Virus record (IMG/VR): IMGVR_UViG_3300028197_000051
Span: 1-39,123 of that record
Length of the DNA stretch: 39,123 nt
Direction: 5' to 3' (one strand)
DNA from: a virus
The translations under genes were made by a program, and so were the position numbers. Below, in pieces: positions 20,161-32,065 of the stretch. A model generated the notes under the pieces. The model saw nothing but the letters and a program-made list of their open reading frames with translations, had not been told where the DNA came from and made no database searches. The first letter of the stretch is position 1. Each line of letters begins with the position of its first letter.

Positions 20161-21423
20161 ATGGTTAAATTTCTAAGTAGTGGTAACATCACAATGGATA
20201 AGGTATATATTCACCCTATATGGGAAAGTGTATCCGTACATCCCTGCATAGATAGTTTATCTATGGTGTATATATACGATATAACCAACGATACAGAGGT
20301 TGTAATCAACTTAAAAAATATTGATACCCATACAACTACCTTAGATAAGTTTACGTTTAAATTCAATGAATCATATATATACGACAACAAATCGTTCTTA
20401 AACATTCTTCAGATATCAAACTCATTTGATGCAAGTTTAGTAAAATATTTACAATCGAATTCCCCACTTCAATCTAATCTAACACCAACACATCTTTTTT
20501 ATCATCGTAGATTCAATTCTCTCAAAGGTGTTAACAATCTTATTCCTATATCAAAACACATAGAATCAATAAGAGATGTGAAAGATGAATTCCTACAGTA
20601 TTACGATTTGGGTGGGGAAAACTTCGATTGTGTGAAGAAATTTGAAAATTTCTATATAAAGCCGTTAAACTTAGTGGAACGAAATGGGATACATACTACA
20701 AATGGGTTAGAGTGGACTCAATATCATCCATATACCTTAACTTCTCGTCCTTCCAACAATTTTGGTGGTGTAAATTATGCAGCTCTCAATAAAGAAGATG
20801 GAAGTAGGGATAGATTTGTTAGTAGGTTCGATGAGGGTAAATTAGTACAATTCGATTACGATGCTTATCATCCTCGTATCATTGGTAAGATGGTAGGTGA
20901 ACCAATTCCGATGGATGTGAGTGGACACCAAACTTTAGCAGATATGTATGGAGTATCTTATGGAGATTCAAAAGGAATAACGTTTAGACAATTATATGGG
21001 GGAGTGCAAGAGGAATATCTACATATTCCTTTGTTCTCAAAAGTTTCACACAAAATAGATAAGATGTGGATGGAATTTAATCGTAGAGGTTACATAGAAA
21101 CACCATTAGGTAGAAAATTCTCTAAAGAGAACCTAAAAGATATAAATGCAAACAAATTGTTTAACTATGTGTTACAGGCAACTGAAACAGAGTTGAATAT
21201 GAAGATTTTAAATAGGGTAATGGAGTTTTTAGAAGAAAAACAATCAAAAATGGTTTTATATACTTATGATTCATATTTATTGGATGTACACCCTTCTGAA
21301 AATGAACTTTTAAAAAATTTAAAGATACTTATAGAAGGGAATGGTTTCCCTACAAAGGTAGAAATCGGAAATAGATACTCAGAAATGAAATCTATTGATT
21401 TAGAAATAAACGGAATAATATGA
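20161..21423 (+). CDS. Family-A DNA-polymerase-like protein
   Basis: 420 residues. The C-terminal 220 residues carry polymerase-A motifs in order: TSRPSNNFGGVNYAALNK (like T-x-R-L-S-S-x-x-P-N-L-Q), motif A VQFDYDAYHPRI with Asp232 and Arg239, motif B K271-x3-F275-x3-Y279-G280 in KGITFRQLYGG, LQATETELNMKIL, and motif C YTYDSYLL with Asp370 (normally HDE). The usual Arg four residues before the motif-B Lys is absent. Residues 1-170 match nothing I know; a decayed proofreading domain is possible. The genome also encodes gp43, so this is a second polymerase: repair, priming-like or translesion use are options. Its ATG abuts the promoter; Met12 (20194) is an alternative start. The stop overlaps the next ATG. 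Confidence 0.7.
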   Translation: MVKFLSSGNITMDKVYIHPIWESVSVHPCIDSLSMVYIYDITNDTEVVINLKNIDTHTTTLDKFTFKFNESYIYDNKSFLNILQISNSFDASLVKYLQSNSPLQSNLTPTHLFYHRRFNSLKGVNNLIPISKHIESIRDVKDEFLQYYDLGGENFDCVKKFENFYIKPLNLVERNGIHTTNGLEWTQYHPYTLTSRPSNNFGGVNYAALNKEDGSRDRFVSRFDEGKLVQFDYDAYHPRIIGKMVGEPIPMDVSGHQTLADMYGVSYGDSKGITFRQLYGGVQEEYLHIPLFSKVSHKIDKMWMEFNRRGYIETPLGRKFSKENLKDINANKLFNYVLQATETELNMKILNRVMEFLEEKQSKMVLYTYDSYLLDVHPSENELLKNLKILIEGNGFPTKVEIGNRYSEMKSIDLEINGII

Positions 21424-23513
21424 AAAAATTTCTTAACGAAATGGCCAGGTTATGGTGGGTAGAAGTTGGAACACAACTAACAAATCCCTTATCGGAACAA
21501 TCCATAGATGGTTTACGAAAAATACTAAAAGAAGAATATGAGTTCGATTCAGAAGTAATCGAATACATTATAGAATCAGCTGTTAAAACTCCTACTAACT
21601 TTCATTTAGGTGGAAATAGAGAATCAGGAATGCAGGTTGGTTCGAATGATACGGCAGTATCGGCACATTTACATCACGATGGAAACGATGATGAAGATGG
21701 AGCAATAGATTACGATGAACCATTAGAAGAGGATGAAGAAAATGAATTACCTTCAAAAGATAAAGCTGGAGATGATGAAGAAGATGATAAAGAAAAAGTT
21801 ATCAAAGACTTATCAAAAAATGCACTCACTGCTTACGAAAAAGACAAATTAAAAAAAGAAGATGTTTACGTTAAGAATAAGAAATCAGGTTCGGTTTACA
21901 CAGTAAAGAAACCAAATCCTGATACTCATGTAAAACCTTCAAAAGATGATATTGAGAAGGCTAAAGAGGATGATAAATCTGATGATTCTACACCGGATAA
22001 TAATTCATTTGAAACATCAGAACCTAATAGTAAAAAGAATACTGATACGAAAATTCAGATAAATAAAGAATTAGGTGAAAACTTAAACTTTATTGAAGAG
22101 AATTATGATAAAGTTCGTTTAAAAACAGGTGGTGGTTCAAACTCACCATCAATTCAAGATGTAAAAGATTTAAAAGAGTTTACTGAAAAACGTATGGCTC
22201 AAGATGAAAGAAGAAAAGAAGCACTTGAAAAGGGTGAAGAATTCAACGAAGAGGTATATGTACACCCATCAATTAAACAGAGAAAAATAACTGATAAAAC
22301 TGTTGGTAAAACAATGGATTACTTTGAAAATAAATTGGGTGATAAGGAATTTGGTAAATTACTAAAAAAGTTTGCAACAGGTGGTGCAGTACCAAGACAT
22401 CTAACTAAAGTAACTAAACTTAAAAAAGGTGAAGAAGGTTATCCTGGTATTGATAAAAACTCACCAGGATATATTAGGGCCCAAAAGGTTTTAAAATTAT
22501 ATCTAAAAAATGATTGTAAAAGTCCTGTAACAGGTAAACCACTTCCTTTAAGTCATATGGAACCAGACCATAGATTACCATTTACAACTGCCGAATCGGA
22601 TATTGTAGAATCAGGTAAATATAAAGGATTAAGTTTAAAAGCTAAAAAACCAGCTGATGGTAATTCATTACAAGAAATAATGAAAAAACGAAAAACTGAA
22701 CTTACCGATACAGAACAAAATATTGTAAAAGATTTAGAACCATTACAAGCCAAATATGATAATCCAGATACAAATATGGATTTAATGGCCGGTCCTGTTA
22801 ACCAATTTAAGAGTGATTTGATTGATGACAAGTTATTGAATTCAATTAGAAAAAAGTTGGCAGAAAATCCAAAAGAAAAGAAATTACAAAATGAGTATAA
22901 AACTCTTAGAAAAAAATTAATTAGAGAACATCATTCTGATAAAGTTAGTAGAGGTGATAATCCACCATACAATGAGTACGATATCAGAAATGCAGATAGT
23001 ACTGAAACTAATGCAATGATGAAGGCTCATAATTTTTATCATCCTGATGCTAAAACAATTACTGAATTAGAAGGTGGAGACCCATCAAAGGGAATCCCAG
23101 CAGACCCTAAGTATTATGACAAGGTAAAATCATTTTGGAAAGATAAAGGAATTGATTTACCTGAAAGTACGGATGATATTGATTTTGATAAAGAACCGTT
23201 CAATAAAACTATGACCGTATATGTTCAGGCCGGTAGAAGTAGGGGTGGTGCAAAAAGAAGAAGTAAAGATGAGGACCATAGTTATATGATTGATGAATTT
23301 AAGAAACATAATTATTTCGGAAGTTCATTGAAAGATGATAAAGGTCAGGAAAAGGTTATAGATGATGCAAGACGGGGATTGAATAAACAATTGGATAAAA
23401 AAGAAATGGAAATCTTAAAAGTTCAGTTAGATGACCCTAATATAACAGGTCGTAAGAGAGATAATCGACAAAAAGAGTTAGATAGATTAGAAAAACTCTA
23501 CAGTAAAGATTAA
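21420..23513 (+). CDS. Large acidic protein with an HNH-type nuclease-like domain
   Basis: 697 residues, overlapping the polymerase-A-like gene by 4 nt (ATGA). Residues 1-50 form a small helical domain (LSEQSIDGLRKILKEEYEFD); 75-215 are acidic and low complexity with a YVKNKKSGSVYTVKKPNPDT element; 230-300 are charged helix. From about 365 the sequence reads CKSPVTGKPLPLSHMEPDHR with LPFTTAESD, and 80 residues on NMDLMAGPVNQFKSDL: an EPDH active-site block plus distal Asn, the core of an extended HNH domain. The Cys pairs of classic HNH are not visible. The C-terminus is highly charged. A DNA processing role is suggested by the coupling to the polymerase; homing or packaging use is also possible. 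Confidence 0.55.
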   Translation: MKKFLNEMARLWWVEVGTQLTNPLSEQSIDGLRKILKEEYEFDSEVIEYIIESAVKTPTNFHLGGNRESGMQVGSNDTAVSAHLHHDGNDDEDGAIDYDEPLEEDEENELPSKDKAGDDEEDDKEKVIKDLSKNALTAYEKDKLKKEDVYVKNKKSGSVYTVKKPNPDTHVKPSKDDIEKAKEDDKSDDSTPDNNSFETSEPNSKKNTDTKIQINKELGENLNFIEENYDKVRLKTGGGSNSPSIQDVKDLKEFTEKRMAQDERRKEALEKGEEFNEEVYVHPSIKQRKITDKTVGKTMDYFENKLGDKEFGKLLKKFATGGAVPRHLTKVTKLKKGEEGYPGIDKNSPGYIRAQKVLKLYLKNDCKSPVTGKPLPLSHMEPDHRLPFTTAESDIVESGKYKGLSLKAKKPADGNSLQEIMKKRKTELTDTEQNIVKDLEPLQAKYDNPDTNMDLMAGPVNQFKSDLIDDKLLNSIRKKLAENPKEKKLQNEYKTLRKKLIREHHSDKVSRGDNPPYNEYDIRNADSTETNAMMKAHNFYHPDAKTITELEGGDPSKGIPADPKYYDKVKSFWKDKGIDLPESTDDIDFDKEPFNKTMTVYVQAGRSRGGAKRRSKDEDHSYMIDEFKKHNYFGSSLKDDKGQEKVIDDARRGLNKQLDKKEMEILKVQLDDPNITGRKRDNRQKELDRLEKLYSKD

Positions 23514-23528
23514 ATACGGAGAGAATGA

Positions 23529-23918
23529 GTGAGAACACAACTACTATGTACGTTTACATCAGAAGCTTCGTTTGAAGATTTGTTAACTAAGATATTCGAT
23601 GGATATGAATTATTCAGTAGAAAAATATTCATACTGAAATTAGAACCATCCAAAGAATTAGTAATTAGTTACAATATTGTACCAAATAAGGAAAACCGAT
23701 TCTTGCCTAATACCATAATGGTACATAGAAAGAAAGAATCAAACACCATCTATACAATCAACGCTCTGAATCGATTGATTGGTGATTTAAACGGTGGTAA
23801 AGAAGATAAAAGATATCAAGTAAATTGGAATGATTATCGTAATTCAGTTATTCTTACAGAGGGTGAAGGATATAAGATAATGACAACAAAATTGTTCAGA
23901 ATAGTTGATGTTAATTAA
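23529..23918 (+). CDS. Unknown protein with GTG start
   Basis: 129 residues. GTG is the only start available after the in-frame TGA at 23526; GGAGA lies 5 nt before it. The sequence has mixed alpha/beta pattern: LLCTFTSEASFEDLLTKIFD, then IFILKLEPSKELVISYNIVP, RFLPNTIMVHRKKESNTIYT and INALNRLIGDLNG. I recall the NTI-HRK-T-TIYTINALN pattern from unassigned proteins of marine T4-like viruses, not from anything characterised. It lies 15 nt after the HNH-type gene and probably ends that transcription unit. Confidence 0.65.
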   Translation: MRTQLLCTFTSEASFEDLLTKIFDGYELFSRKIFILKLEPSKELVISYNIVPNKENRFLPNTIMVHRKKESNTIYTINALNRLIGDLNGGKEDKRYQVNWNDYRNSVILTEGEGYKIMTTKLFRIVDVN

Positions 23919-23928
23919 AATATTTAGA

Positions 23929-23936
23929 TATTTATA
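23929..23936 (+). promoter_or_regulatory. Late-promoter-like box TATTTATA before the metallothionein-like gene
   Basis: AGATATTTATAGTATATG: the box ends 4 nt before the ATG at 23941. It is the only exact copy outside the structural block. Confidence 0.45.
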
Positions 23937-23940
23937 GTAT

Positions 23941-24036
23941 ATGAAAGAATGTACCTGTAACCAATGTTTATGTGAATCAAAAGAAGAGTGTAACTCATCT
24001 TGCGGTTCAAACAATCAATGTACTTGTTGTAAATAA
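23941..24036 (+). CDS. Metallothionein-like cysteine-rich peptide (31 residues)
   Basis: A complete ATG-to-TAA frame; the codon two before the ATG is a stop, so no longer form exists. Nine of 31 residues are Cys, at positions 4, 6, 9, 11, 17, 21, 27, 29 and 30: two CxC pairs (CTC, CLC), spaced single Cys, and a final CTCC. There is no His or aromatic residue; the rest is Lys, Glu, Ser, Asn and Gln. That composition and spacing are typical of metallothioneins, which bind Zn, Cd or Cu in thiolate clusters; it is not a CxxC zinc finger. It stands alone, with a late-type box before it and a replication promoter behind it. Copper or zinc buffering during infection, or metal supply for phage zinc or RNR proteins, are inferences. 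Confidence 0.6.
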   Translation: MKECTCNQCLCESKEECNSSCGSNNQCTCCK

Positions 24037-24225: not shown

Positions 24226-24257
24226 TTAGGAAGTTACAAATAAATTTCGTATATTTA
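24226..24257 (+). promoter_or_regulatory. Bacteroidota-type promoter (TTAGG, 19 nt, TATATTTA)
   Basis: TTAGG 24226-24230, TATATTTA 24250-24257 in TTTCGTATATTTACAT. Second, gene-proximal promoter for gp32; leader of about 35 nt, A-rich, no Shine-Dalgarno. Confidence 0.75.
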
Positions 24258-24296: not shown

Positions 24297-25079
24297 ATGG
24301 CAATTGACTTAAATGCAATCCGAAACCGTTTGGACAGTTTACAAACGAAAACTACAAAAACTGATAATCTGTGGAAACCAAAACCTGGTAAACAACAAGT
24401 AAGAATAGTACCTTACGTTCACAATCCATCAAATCCTTTTATCGAATTATTCTTTCACTACAATTTTGGTGGTAAGAACATTCTTTCACCTCAAACACAT
24501 GGAGAGGCCGACCCTTTAGTAGAGTTCGCTGACCAATTGAAATCGACTGGTGATAGAAACGATTGGAATCTTTCAAAACAACTTACTCCGAAAATGAGAA
24601 CTTATGTTCCTGTTATCGTTAGAGGTGAGGAATCTGAAGGAATCAAATTTTGGGGATTTGGTAAAACTGTGTATCAAGAATTACTAGCATTCTTCGCTGA
24701 CCCAGATTATGGTGATTTAACAGACCCAACGAGTGGTAGAGATATTACTGTTGAGTTTAAAACCGCTAAAGAGTTAGGTAAGAACTATCCTGAAACTTAT
24801 ATCAGAGTTAAACCAAACCAAACTCCAATTACAGAAGATAAAACCGTTTTAGAATCTGTAAAAGACCAAATTGAATTACCAGGTATGTTTAAGAAATATA
24901 CTTATGATGATATGAAAGGTTTATTGGAAACTTGGATGGAACATGGTACGGTAGAAGGTGATTCGAAAGAAGAAGAATCTACACCAACTCAAAACAACAC
25001 TCAATCTGCACCTGCAGCTGTGAGTAATTCAACAAATTCAGATGTAAAAGATGCATTTGAAGATTTATTCAATAATTAA
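24297..25079 (+). CDS. 32: Single-stranded DNA-binding protein, gp32
   Basis: 260 residues (T4 gp32 is 301). N-terminal basic segment LNAIRNRLDSLQ, then WKPKPGKQQVRIVPYVHNPS with FIELFFHYNFG, the gp32 OB-fold start, and later KMRTYVPVIVRGEESEGIKFW with FGKTVYQELLAF, GRDITVEFKT and TYIRVKPNQTPI. It ends in a Ser/Thr/Asn linker and an acidic tail, DVKDAFEDLFNN, the part that recruits partner proteins in T4. There is no Cys in the protein, so the zinc site of T4 gp32 (three Cys and one His) is absent. It coats ssDNA and organises replication and recombination. First gene of the main replication operon, 12 nt before the recombinase gene. Confidence 0.9.
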   Translation: MAIDLNAIRNRLDSLQTKTTKTDNLWKPKPGKQQVRIVPYVHNPSNPFIELFFHYNFGGKNILSPQTHGEADPLVEFADQLKSTGDRNDWNLSKQLTPKMRTYVPVIVRGEESEGIKFWGFGKTVYQELLAFFADPDYGDLTDPTSGRDITVEFKTAKELGKNYPETYIRVKPNQTPITEDKTVLESVKDQIELPGMFKKYTYDDMKGLLETWMEHGTVEGDSKEEESTPTQNNTQSAPAAVSNSTNSDVKDAFEDLFNN

Positions 25080-28705: not shown

Positions 28706-29701
28706 ATGAAACAATTATTTACAGAAAGAATACCATTCAAACCATTTGAATATCCACAATATTATACCGAAGGTTGGTTAAAACAAGCACAGGCATTTTG
28801 GTTACATACTGAGATACCAATGCAGGGTGATATTAAGGACTGGAATGAAAACCTAACATCAGAAGAAAAGAACTTAGTTGGTAATATCCTATTAGGATTT
28901 GCTCAAACTGAATGTGCAGTATCTGATTATTGGACTACTATGGTTACTAAGTGGTTTCCAAAACACGAAATTAAACAAATGTCTATGATGTTCGGTTCGC
29001 AAGAAACAATTCATGCAACTGCATATTCATACCTAAACGAATCTTTGGGATTAGAAGATTTTGAAGCTTTCCTACACGAACCTGCAATCGCACAAAAATT
29101 TGAATTTCTAACATCTACTACTGCTGAATGGACACATACGGATTTACAGAAGAATCCAACAGCAAGAAAAGAAGTAGCTAGGTCATTAGCAATATTCTCA
29201 GCATTTGCAGAAGGTGTATCTTTATATAGTAGTTTTGCTGTATTATATTCTTTTCAGATGAGAAATCTTCTGAAAGGAATTGGACAGCAAATGAAATGGA
29301 GTGTAAGAGATGAATCATTACATTCTAAAATGGGATGTGAATTATTCAGAGAAATGTGTAATGAGTATCCTGAACTTCATAGTGAAGTTAAAGATGATGT
29401 TCATCAGGCAGCAAAGTATATGATTGAAATGGAACATAAGTTCATTGATATGATATTTGAACAAGGTGATTTAGAAAACTTAAAATCATCTGATTTAAAA
29501 GAATTTATCTCTAAGAGAGGTAATGAGAAATTAGAAGAGTTAGGTTACAAACCTACATTTGAATTTAGTGAGAAGAAAGCATCTAATTTAGATTGGTTCT
29601 ATCATTTGACAGGTGGTACTACTCATACAGATTTCTTCGCAGTTAGACCTACTGATTATAGTAAGGCAAACGAAGGTGAAGATTTCAACGATATTTGGTA
29701 A
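28706..29701 (+). CDS. nrdB: Class I ribonucleotide reductase, small (beta) subunit
   Basis: 331 residues. The di-metal ligands are visible at canonical spacing: Glu69, Glu100, His103, Glu169, Glu203, His206 (compare E. coli 84, 115, 118, 204, 238, 241), and the radical Tyr is Tyr107 (E. coli 122). The first ligand is Glu where the usual class Ia enzyme has Asp. The C-terminus (YSKANEGEDFNDIW) is acidic with an aromatic end, as needed to dock on the large subunit. It generates the tyrosyl radical used by NrdA to make dNTPs. A-rich leader without Shine-Dalgarno; MazG-like and nrdA genes follow. Confidence 0.93.
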   Translation: MKQLFTERIPFKPFEYPQYYTEGWLKQAQAFWLHTEIPMQGDIKDWNENLTSEEKNLVGNILLGFAQTECAVSDYWTTMVTKWFPKHEIKQMSMMFGSQETIHATAYSYLNESLGLEDFEAFLHEPAIAQKFEFLTSTTAEWTHTDLQKNPTARKEVARSLAIFSAFAEGVSLYSSFAVLYSFQMRNLLKGIGQQMKWSVRDESLHSKMGCELFREMCNEYPELHSEVKDDVHQAAKYMIEMEHKFIDMIFEQGDLENLKSSDLKEFISKRGNEKLEELGYKPTFEFSEKKASNLDWFYHLTGGTTHTDFFAVRPTDYSKANEGEDFNDIW

Positions 29702-29723
29702 TAATAATAAAAAAAAACAAGTT

Positions 29724-30023
29724 ATGAATTTTGATGAATTGATTACAAACGTAATCGGATGGGCGGATGATAAGAACATCTTAAAAAGTGAAAACGCCCC
29801 AAAACAAATGTTAAAGGTTGTGGAAGAAGTGGGTGAAACTGCAGGAGCTCTCCTTAAAGACGATAGGGATGAATTAGTAGATGGAATCGGAGATTCTTTC
29901 GTTACACTAATCATACTATCAATGCAGTTAGGATTACACCCATCAGAGTGTTTAGAAGCTGCGTGGAACGAAATAAAAGATAGAAAAGGTAAAACGGAAA
30001 ATGGAGTGTTCATAAAACAATGA
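29724..30023 (+). CDS. MazG-like nucleotide pyrophosphohydrolase
   Basis: 99 residues from the ATG at 29724, the first start after the nrdB stop. It has the MazG metal motif EEVGETAGALLKDDRDELVD with GIGDSFVTLIILS (E-x2-E and E-L-x-D-x-I-G-D). The family hydrolyses (d)NTPs to monophosphates; phage versions have been proposed to alter ppGpp or clean the nucleotide pool. It is placed between nrdB and nrdA, overlapping the nrdA start by 4 nt, so all three are co-expressed and nucleotide-pool control is the natural reading. Confidence 0.85.
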   Translation: MNFDELITNVIGWADDKNILKSENAPKQMLKVVEEVGETAGALLKDDRDELVDGIGDSFVTLIILSMQLGLHPSECLEAAWNEIKDRKGKTENGVFIKQ

Positions 30024-31792
30024 AGAATTACGGAGCTGAATTTGATTGGGAAATAGACGTAGATTTTCCATCTTGGGCAAACACAGAAATTTACGTTAAA
30101 ACGATTTCCAAAGGATACTTACTAAGTGGTGAAAAACCAAAAGATGCTTATTGGAGAGTTGCAACAACAGCGGCACGAAGATTGAATAAACCTCAAATGG
30201 CAACAAAGTTCTTTGATTACATTTGGAAGGGTTGGTTAAATCTCGCAACACCAGTATTATCAAACACAGGTACAGATAGAGGATTACCAATCAGTTGTTT
30301 TGGAATCGATGTGGCTGATTCAATTCAGGATATCGGTACTAAGAACTTAGAGATGATGTTACTCGCTAAACATGGTGGTGGAGTAGGTGTTGGTATTAAT
30401 ATGATTAGACCAGCTGGTGCAAACATTACACAAAACGGAACATCCGATGGTGTTGTACCATTCTGTAAAATATACGATTCAACAATTCTCGCAACCAATC
30501 AAGGTTCGGTAAGAAGAGGAGCTGCATCTGTTAACCTAAACATAGAACATGATGATTTTGATGAGTGGATTGAAATCAGAGAACCTAAAGGTGATGTAAA
30601 CCGACAGGCATTAAATCTACACCAATGTGTAGTTGTTGGTGATAAGTTTATGAGAAGATTAGAAGATGGTGATGATGAGGCTAGAAGAAAATGGGGTAAG
30701 GTACTTCAAAAAAGAAAATCAACAGGTGAACCATATGTAATGTATAAAGGTAATGTTAACAAACAGAATCCTGACCAATATAAAAACAATGGATTGAAAG
30801 TTCATATGACAAACATATGTTCTGAGATTACATTACATACAGATGAGAATCATTCATTCGTATGTTGTTTAAGTTCATTGAACCTATCAAAATACGATGA
30901 GTGGAAACACACCGATTTAATCTATACATCAACTTGGTTCTTAGATGGTATTCTATCAGAGTTCTTACAAAGAGCTAAGAATATGAGAGGGTTTGAAAAC
31001 TCAGTACGTTCTGCAGAAAAAGGTAGAGCATTAGGATTAGGTGTATTAGGATGGCATACATACTTACAACAAAAAGGTATTCCATTTGATTCACTTCCAG
31101 CTCAGTTTGAAACGAGAAAGATATTCTCTCAAATGAAAATTGAATCTGAAAGAGCAAGTAGAGATATGGCAACTGAAATGGGTGAACCATTGTGGTGTAG
31201 AGATAGTGGAATGAGAAACACACACCTAAGAGCAGTAGCTCCAACTGTATCCAATTCAAAGTTAGCAGGTAACGTATCACCAGGTATCGAACCTTGGGCA
31301 GCAAACGTATTTACGGAACAAACTTCAAAAGGTACGTTCATTAGAAAAAACAGAGAATTAGAAAAAGTACTTAGAAAAGTAGGTATTAATAATAAAGAAA
31401 CTTGGGATAAGATTTTATCCGATGGCGGTTCTATACAGGATATCAACGAATTAGATAGTTGGGTATTTTGTGATGGAAAACTAATACAACTTAATGATGA
31501 GATTGATACAACAAAATGTGATAAGGTAAAGGATGTATTTAAAACATTCAAAGAAATTAACCAATTAGAGTTAGTTAGACAGGCCGGTGTTAGACAACAG
31601 TACGTCGACCAATCAGTATCGTTGAATTTAGCATTCCCTTCAGAGGCAACTCCAAAGTGGATGAATACAGTACATTTCGAAGCTTGGAAGCAAGGTGTAA
31701 AAACTTTGTACTATACGAGAACCGAATCAGTACTAAGAGGTGATATCGCACAACAAGCGATGGACCCAGATTGTTTAAGTTGTGATGGATAA
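30020..31792 (+). CDS. nrdA: Class I ribonucleotide reductase, large (alpha) subunit
   Basis: 590 residues, much shorter than E. coli NrdA (761). The N-terminal ATP-cone is absent; the chain begins near the alpha-helical domain (WANTEIYVKTISKGYLLSGE). Catalytic elements: LPISCFGIDVADS with Cys93, the radical site TNICSEI with Asn265, Cys267 and Glu269, CCLSSLNL with Cys283, the Tyr pair in TLYYTRTES, and C-terminal CLSC for re-reduction. APTVSNSKLAGNVSPGIEPW is the phosphate-binding loop region. Without the cone it should escape dATP inhibition, which suits a phage. A thioredoxin gene follows 27 nt downstream and is the likely reductant. Confidence 0.95.
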   Translation: MKNYGAEFDWEIDVDFPSWANTEIYVKTISKGYLLSGEKPKDAYWRVATTAARRLNKPQMATKFFDYIWKGWLNLATPVLSNTGTDRGLPISCFGIDVADSIQDIGTKNLEMMLLAKHGGGVGVGINMIRPAGANITQNGTSDGVVPFCKIYDSTILATNQGSVRRGAASVNLNIEHDDFDEWIEIREPKGDVNRQALNLHQCVVVGDKFMRRLEDGDDEARRKWGKVLQKRKSTGEPYVMYKGNVNKQNPDQYKNNGLKVHMTNICSEITLHTDENHSFVCCLSSLNLSKYDEWKHTDLIYTSTWFLDGILSEFLQRAKNMRGFENSVRSAEKGRALGLGVLGWHTYLQQKGIPFDSLPAQFETRKIFSQMKIESERASRDMATEMGEPLWCRDSGMRNTHLRAVAPTVSNSKLAGNVSPGIEPWAANVFTEQTSKGTFIRKNRELEKVLRKVGINNKETWDKILSDGGSIQDINELDSWVFCDGKLIQLNDEIDTTKCDKVKDVFKTFKEINQLELVRQAGVRQQYVDQSVSLNLAFPSEATPKWMNTVHFEAWKQGVKTLYYTRTESVLRGDIAQQAMDPDCLSCDG

Positions 31793-31819: not shown

Positions 31820-32065
31820 ATGAAGTATTTATATTTTTCAGCAGCATGGTGTGGTCCCTGTAAATCATTATCACCCATTATGAATGAAGTATCATCGCAA
31901 GTAGCGGTTGAGAAGATTGATGTAGATTTAGATTACGAAAGAGCACAACAATATGGAGTTAGGAATATCCCAACTGTAATATTAGTTGATGGAGTTACGG
32001 AAGTTAAACGATTTATCGGAGTACAACCAACTCAAACATATCTCAATGAGGTAAAAAACTCCTAA
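31820..32065 (+). CDS. Thioredoxin-like protein
   Basis: 81 residues, a short thioredoxin. Active site AAWCGPCKSLSP with both Cys, later cis-Pro in NIPTVILVDG and the closing KRFIGVQPTQTYL. About 25 residues shorter than E. coli TrxA because the first beta-alpha unit is missing, as in phage NrdC/NrdH-like proteins. Its place directly after nrdA indicates that it reduces the RNR disulfide. A clear GAAGGA ribosome site precedes the ATG, unusual for this part of the window. Confidence 0.9.
   Translation: MKYLYFSAAWCGPCKSLSPIMNEVSSQVAVEKIDVDLDYERAQQYGVRNIPTVILVDGVTEVKRFIGVQPTQTYLNEVKNS

Follow-up and report, generated by a model that had tools for sequence, protein, structure and literature searches.

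A conserved nine-cysteine, metallothionein-like peptide encoded by T4-like environmental phages

A 31-residue peptide with nine cysteines is encoded in the virus record IMGVR_UViG_3300028197_000051 of IMG/VR, of which positions 1 to 39,123 were analysed (the whole of this stretch is called the window). The open reading frame is a genuine gene on which purifying selection acts; it is kept throughout one phage clade, and a different phage has it at another location. The reading that best accounts for these observations, to which a probability of about two in three was assigned, is that of a late-expressed accessory peptide of metallothionein-like type, which would buffer metal in a T4-like phage by means of one predicted metal-thiolate cluster. 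The features of the window that bear on this reading are:

23529-23918 (+): 129-aa conserved protein, left border of the slot that contains the peptide gene; 131 relatives in IMG/VR, and a homologue that adjoins the single-stranded DNA binding protein (SSB) in Flavobacterium phage immuto
23929-23936 (+): TATTTATA box, late-promoter-like; the same box stands upstream of late genes and is retained in relatives whether or not they encode the peptide
23941-24036 (+): nine-cysteine metallothionein-like peptide, 31 aa; identified by translation, invariant cysteines, dN/dS, 42 IMG/VR contigs and the homologue in L278
24069-24077 (+): TCGTATATT box, early/middle-promoter-like, the first between the peptide and SSB genes; enriched relative to shuffles
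24247-24255 (+): TCGTATATT box, early/middle-promoter-like, the second and nearest to the SSB gene; enriched, and conserved upstream of SSB in relatives
24297-25079 (+): gp32-like SSB, right border of the slot, with no cysteine; PF08804, E 1.3e-12; phrog_1192
28706-31792: ribonucleotide reductase, NrdA/NrdB-like proteins, from ORF translations
31820-32065: thioredoxin-like protein, from ORF translation

A short gene under purifying selection

Translation of 23941-24036 on the plus strand gives MKECTCNQCLCESKEECNSSCGSNNQCTCCK, which contains nine cysteines and no aromatic residue in its 31 amino acids, and the upstream in-frame context (TAG-TAT-ATG) places a stop two codons 5' of the ATG. The sequence-only reading had described the open reading frame in these terms, and each of them agrees with the translation. 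Cysteine makes up 29% of the peptide and is arranged as CxCxxCxC-x5-C-x3-C-x5-CxCC, with three CxC motifs, one CC, no histidine and spacers of 5 residues only. Among window ORFs of 25-80 aa it is the only one with more than 14% cysteine. First-order Markov shuffling of the window (n=200) produced an ORF with at least eight cysteines at 20% or more in one shuffle, and an ORF with nine cysteines in none (0/200).

The reality of the gene is decided by conservation. A strict pattern was run over the whole IMG/VR viral collection and the genomes of 84,980 bacterial and archaeal species; it matched 42 IMG/VR contigs, in all of them in the interval from the 129-aa gene to the gp32-like SSB gene, and had no match in the 84,980 cellular genomes. 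Across 17 distinct DNA versions all nine cysteines were unchanged while many other positions varied, and the cysteine codons varied only between TGT and TGC. Divergence was 0.134 at third codon positions and 0.075 at first and second positions, and the dN/dS of the 17 haplotypes was about 0.29, an approximate value obtained by pooling all pairs, with no tree, over 93 nt. The peptide gene is taken as real because of these invariant cysteines, the synonymous changes within their codons and the low dN/dS. Two checks had been proposed with the original reading, namely cysteine conservation in relatives and a substitution pattern distinct from that of non-coding DNA. Neither refuted it: the nine positions are fixed and a distant homologue keeps their spacing, and substitution is coding-like. 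A CG.NNQC segment is also conserved, and the stop codon has been lost in a single haplotype, L006.

Less specific searches added little. With a pattern of cysteine spacing only, the matches listed in IMG/VR included TGC-rich low-complexity repeats, and this pattern is uninformative outside the clade. A looser pattern recovered chiefly Firmicutes CGCNNGCGC repeat proteins from the 84,980 genomes, and these were judged unrelated to the peptide. A tblastn search of annotated phages with the peptide gave no match, BLAST being a program that masks such sequences.

Cysteine layout and likeness to metallothioneins

No family above noise was found for the peptide in Pfam, NCBIfam or PHROGs, and no sequence in PDB. 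As the gene is shorter than 100 nt and matches no Pfam, NCBIfam or PHROGs profile, similar genes have probably been missed. The peptide has several sequence features of the functional metallothionein class: small size, a cysteine content within 15-35%, few or no aromatic residues, CxC, CC and CxxC motifs, and conserved cysteines. Proteins of this class also bind several d10 metal ions in thiolate clusters, which for the peptide is a prediction.

The bacterial metallothioneins SmtA/BmtA (PF02069, PDB 1jjd) resemble the peptide in being small, soluble and CxC-rich with nine cysteines, and the motif order CxCxxCxC, CxxxC, CxC is common to both (CACEPCLC, CSEAC, C, CNC in SmtA; CTCNQCLC, CNSSC, CTCC in the peptide). 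Shuffling the peptide gave this order in 0.04% of cases, but the motif had been picked only after being seen, and the figure needs discounting accordingly. SmtA is longer, however (56 residues against 31), its 15- and 10-residue zinc-finger-fold loops and His ligands are missing from the peptide, and its last cysteine stands before the CxC rather than after it, as in the CxCC of the peptide. The PF02069 profile (Metallothio_Pro) matched neither the peptide nor its divergent forms at E 10, whereas the positive control, SmtA, scored 75 bits. Since the loops and ligands are missing and the profile fails, the peptide was not placed in PF02069, and its SmtA-like layout may reflect either convergence or extreme reduction. 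The label metallothionein-like, as first proposed, is retained as the best structural reading; it does not extend to membership by profile of the known bacterial metallothionein family, and the binding of metal is a prediction.

The beta domain of vertebrate metallothionein has about 30 residues, nine cysteines, CxC motifs and no aromatic residues. It is similar to the peptide in size, cysteine count and CxC content, but its cysteine spacing is different and no sequence relationship was detected. Short fungal copper metallothioneins such as that of Neurospora crassa (Cu-MT) resemble the peptide in their very short length and CxC pairs, and in the single cluster predicted for it; they differ in having seven cysteines and Gly/Ser-rich spacers.

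Nine cysteines in 31 residues are the make-up of one M3Cys9 cluster, a standard type in the metallothionein domains of animals (PMC10612145). The nine thiolates would wrap a single cluster, either M(II)3Cys9 with Zn/Cd or roughly Cu(I)6Cys9. As hydrophobic residues are scarce and aromatic residues absent, an ordinary folded core is lacking; the empty peptide would most likely be unfolded, with the chain folding only around metal. An AlphaFold model (pLDDT 65, pTM 0.29) was of too poor a quality for a fold search. A disulfide-rich secreted peptide was ruled out, there being no signal sequence.

The layout can also be read as that of a small zinc-finger-like protein- or RNA-binding peptide, in which C6/C9 and C27/C30 would hold one structural zinc and whose role would be in host takeover, for example at RNA polymerase or the ribosome. 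The sequence-only reading had argued against a zinc ribbon from a lack of CxxC-x(n)-CxxC spacing, which was wrong as worded: C6-N-Q-C9 and C27-T-C-C30 are two CxxC knuckles, as in a zinc ribbon or zinc finger, with 17 residues between them. Small zinc-finger regulators are encoded by phages, Mu Com being one (PMC6483171), and the constraint on CG.NNQC exceeds the needs of a pure metal sponge. However, the five other cysteines are equally invariant, hydrophobic and aromatic residues are almost nil, a basic surface for folding or RNA binding is missing, and no zinc-finger relative above noise was found in PDB or Pfam. This reading is considered unlikely.

A full-text search of the open-licence literature returned no paper on a phage or viral metallothionein. 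An ORF of Microcystis phage MaAM05 (MW495066, 111775-111996) is SmtA-like (E 2e-5, 44% to SmtA) and, in contrast to the peptide, of the full-length SmtA type. SmtA-like, FabI and EngB genes lie together at 109640-113665 of this phage-labelled record, a stretch that is probably cyanobacterial chromosome or a chimera. The chances were judged to be even that the peptide represents the first genuinely phage-borne metallothionein family: a minimal nine-thiolate, single-cluster peptide of SmtA-independent origin or reduction, expressed late from a cargo slot for zinc or copper control, and possibly directed against the host. Metal control does not count among the established phage accessory functions. 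If the reading is true, holding thiophilic metals during infection is something on which some phages spend resources, and metallothioneins extend to bacterial viruses in a minimal, single-cluster form.

Distribution of the peptide and the slot that contains it

Searches with the two neighbouring genes yielded about 130 IMG/VR loci for junction comparison, and the peptide was found at the same place in many loci spanning the interval from the 129-aa gene to the SSB gene. Among 61 distinct junctions, a cysteine-rich peptide was present in all 32 whose 129-aa protein is at least 83.7% identical and in none of the 29 that are more distant; nor did a copy turn up elsewhere on large contigs (as long as 169 kb) from relatives of the latter kind. 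The peptide is dispensable for the wider phage group, since it is missing from all of the more distant relatives. Two of the 32 close junctions have a divergent 46-aa form that retains C.C[DE][ST][KR][DE]EC, and another has the standard peptide together with a 49-aa second form containing CNCDSCEC, whose homology is likely but weak. The divergent forms in L032 (MEKCKCSEYDYPAGVTPCSCDTRDECSSKGCECCNHGGKCRCYEDE) and L034 (MEDVICHIGNFTVCNCDSCECGEENKSTYCESPNSTDCECYPDIDTLYE) keep the cysteine-rich, CxC-rich make-up while the rest is altered, and the L032 form has a single His, within CNHGGKCRC.

A broader pattern recovered an extra homologue, MAEGQLCYCDSCDCETRDECRQTCGVNNQCDCCEDQYWLL (L278, 231-353), which is about 55% identical to the peptide and has all nine cysteine spacings identical. 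It is located on another T4-like contig in a different gene neighbourhood, where it overlaps the preceding ORF at TAATG. The presence of the same spacing at another locus indicates that the gene moves and that selection keeps the spacing. Matches in L422 and L423 were chance frames.

The slot also accepts other genes. In some relatives a gene of ~170 aa is inserted ahead of the peptide and overlaps its start. Mutually unrelated slot proteins share an N-terminal leader of ~22 residues, M-A/G/S-N/I-..-NRKLM-EQI-...-LNE, with the end LxE; it occurs in slot genes of L013, L050, L071, L078, L079, L120 and L122 and in immuto35A_3 (L276 1678-2193). One leader-type slot gene overlaps the peptide gene at TAATG. 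Internal proteins of T4 have a similar capsid-targeting leader, which the gp21 protease cuts; by this analogy, cargo that is packaged and injected may occupy the slot. An RNA element in the slot was sought in Rfam and not found.

The contents of the slot bear on whether the peptide might be an anti-host or anti-defence factor, either stripping zinc from host or defence metalloproteins or being itself packaged and injected like slot cargo. That the slot also takes genes with a leader of the T4 capsid-targeting kind is in keeping with such a role, but the peptide itself is without the ~22-residue LxE leader and its injection or target role is conjectural; of the alternatives considered here, this is the least probable. 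T4 gp32 is a zinc protein. Delivery of zinc from the peptide to the neighbouring SSB is unlikely, as that SSB has no cysteine.

Promoter-like boxes, predicted timing and role

TATTTATA occurs nine times on the plus strand of the window and once on the opposite strand. The boxes at 2580, 5114, 7992, 8604 and 9770 precede five late structural genes (at 2610, 5151, 8029, 8659 and 9804, respectively) by 22-47 nt, and the box is common to the peptide and tail genes. On the coding strand the late box reads TATTTATA in this phage and TATAAATA in T4. The box at 23929-23936 had been regarded as the peptide's own; its position was correct, but it is a general late-gene box that is still found 3' of the 129-aa gene in 13 junctions without the peptide, and is also kept in relatives with the ~170-aa gene inserted before the peptide. 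The site was therefore classed as a cargo slot equipped with a promoter-like box, and the box is not a peptide-specific promoter. As the box ends 4 nt 5' of the ATG, a T4-like start would yield a nearly leaderless message.

TCGTATATT was observed eight times in the window against 0.47 expected, a count reached in no shuffle, at positions that include 19642, 20147, 24069, 24247, 27259, 32092 and 34181. It marks replication-type genes, the SSB gene among them, and the two classes of promoter-like box separate late structural from replication genes. The peptide gene is behind a late-type box yet within an early gene cluster, and the box would place its expression late in infection.

Timing is relevant to the possibility that the peptide is a thiol redox buffer, serving as a disposable reductant or as a disulfide relay with the phage thioredoxin and ribonucleotide reductase, with any bound metal being incidental. 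Thioredoxin-like and NrdA/NrdB-like proteins are indeed encoded by the phage, and metallothioneins are themselves redox active (PMC10612145). However, the peptide has a late-type box and not one of the early type that accompanies the replication genes, and an exact nine-cysteine spacing, conserved down to 55% identity, is needless for a redox buffer. A redox role is judged very unlikely.

In the preferred reading, that of a metal-buffering metallothionein-like peptide, a T4-like phage, most likely one that infects Bacteroidota, would carry an accessory ('moron'-like) gene for a cytosolic peptide that buffers or sequesters thiophilic metal freed by host protein destruction as the host cell collapses. 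Counting against this reading are the failed match to every metallothionein profile, the mere 4 nt from the presumed late box to the ATG, the lost stop codon of L006 and the absence of the peptide from more distant relatives. The benefit might alternatively be the shielding of virion assembly from metal and oxidants, with the peptide scavenging oxidants.

Among cultured phages, the flanking genes are most closely related to those of Flavobacterium phage immuto and, in the case of the SSB, of Microcystis phage Mel-JY01; TATATTTG-like boxes occur in relatives. Bacteroidota are the probable hosts of this T4-like environmental phage family, given its kinship with phage immuto and its TATATTTG and TCGTATATT promoter-like boxes; the canonical Bacteroidota promoter TTTG-N-TANNTTTG was not enriched in the window.

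Elsewhere in the window, 69-1799 encodes a tail-fibre protein with an S74-type C-terminal region and the terminus KKCKCKCNKGEI, which contains CxCxC; this tail could bind metal in the trimer. The ORF at 20161-21420 (420 aa) is a fragment-like family A DNA polymerase, and is followed by a 697-aa protein (21420-23513) that starts MKKFLNE and contains an HNH-like stretch, DCKSPVTGKPLPLSHMEPDHRLPF.
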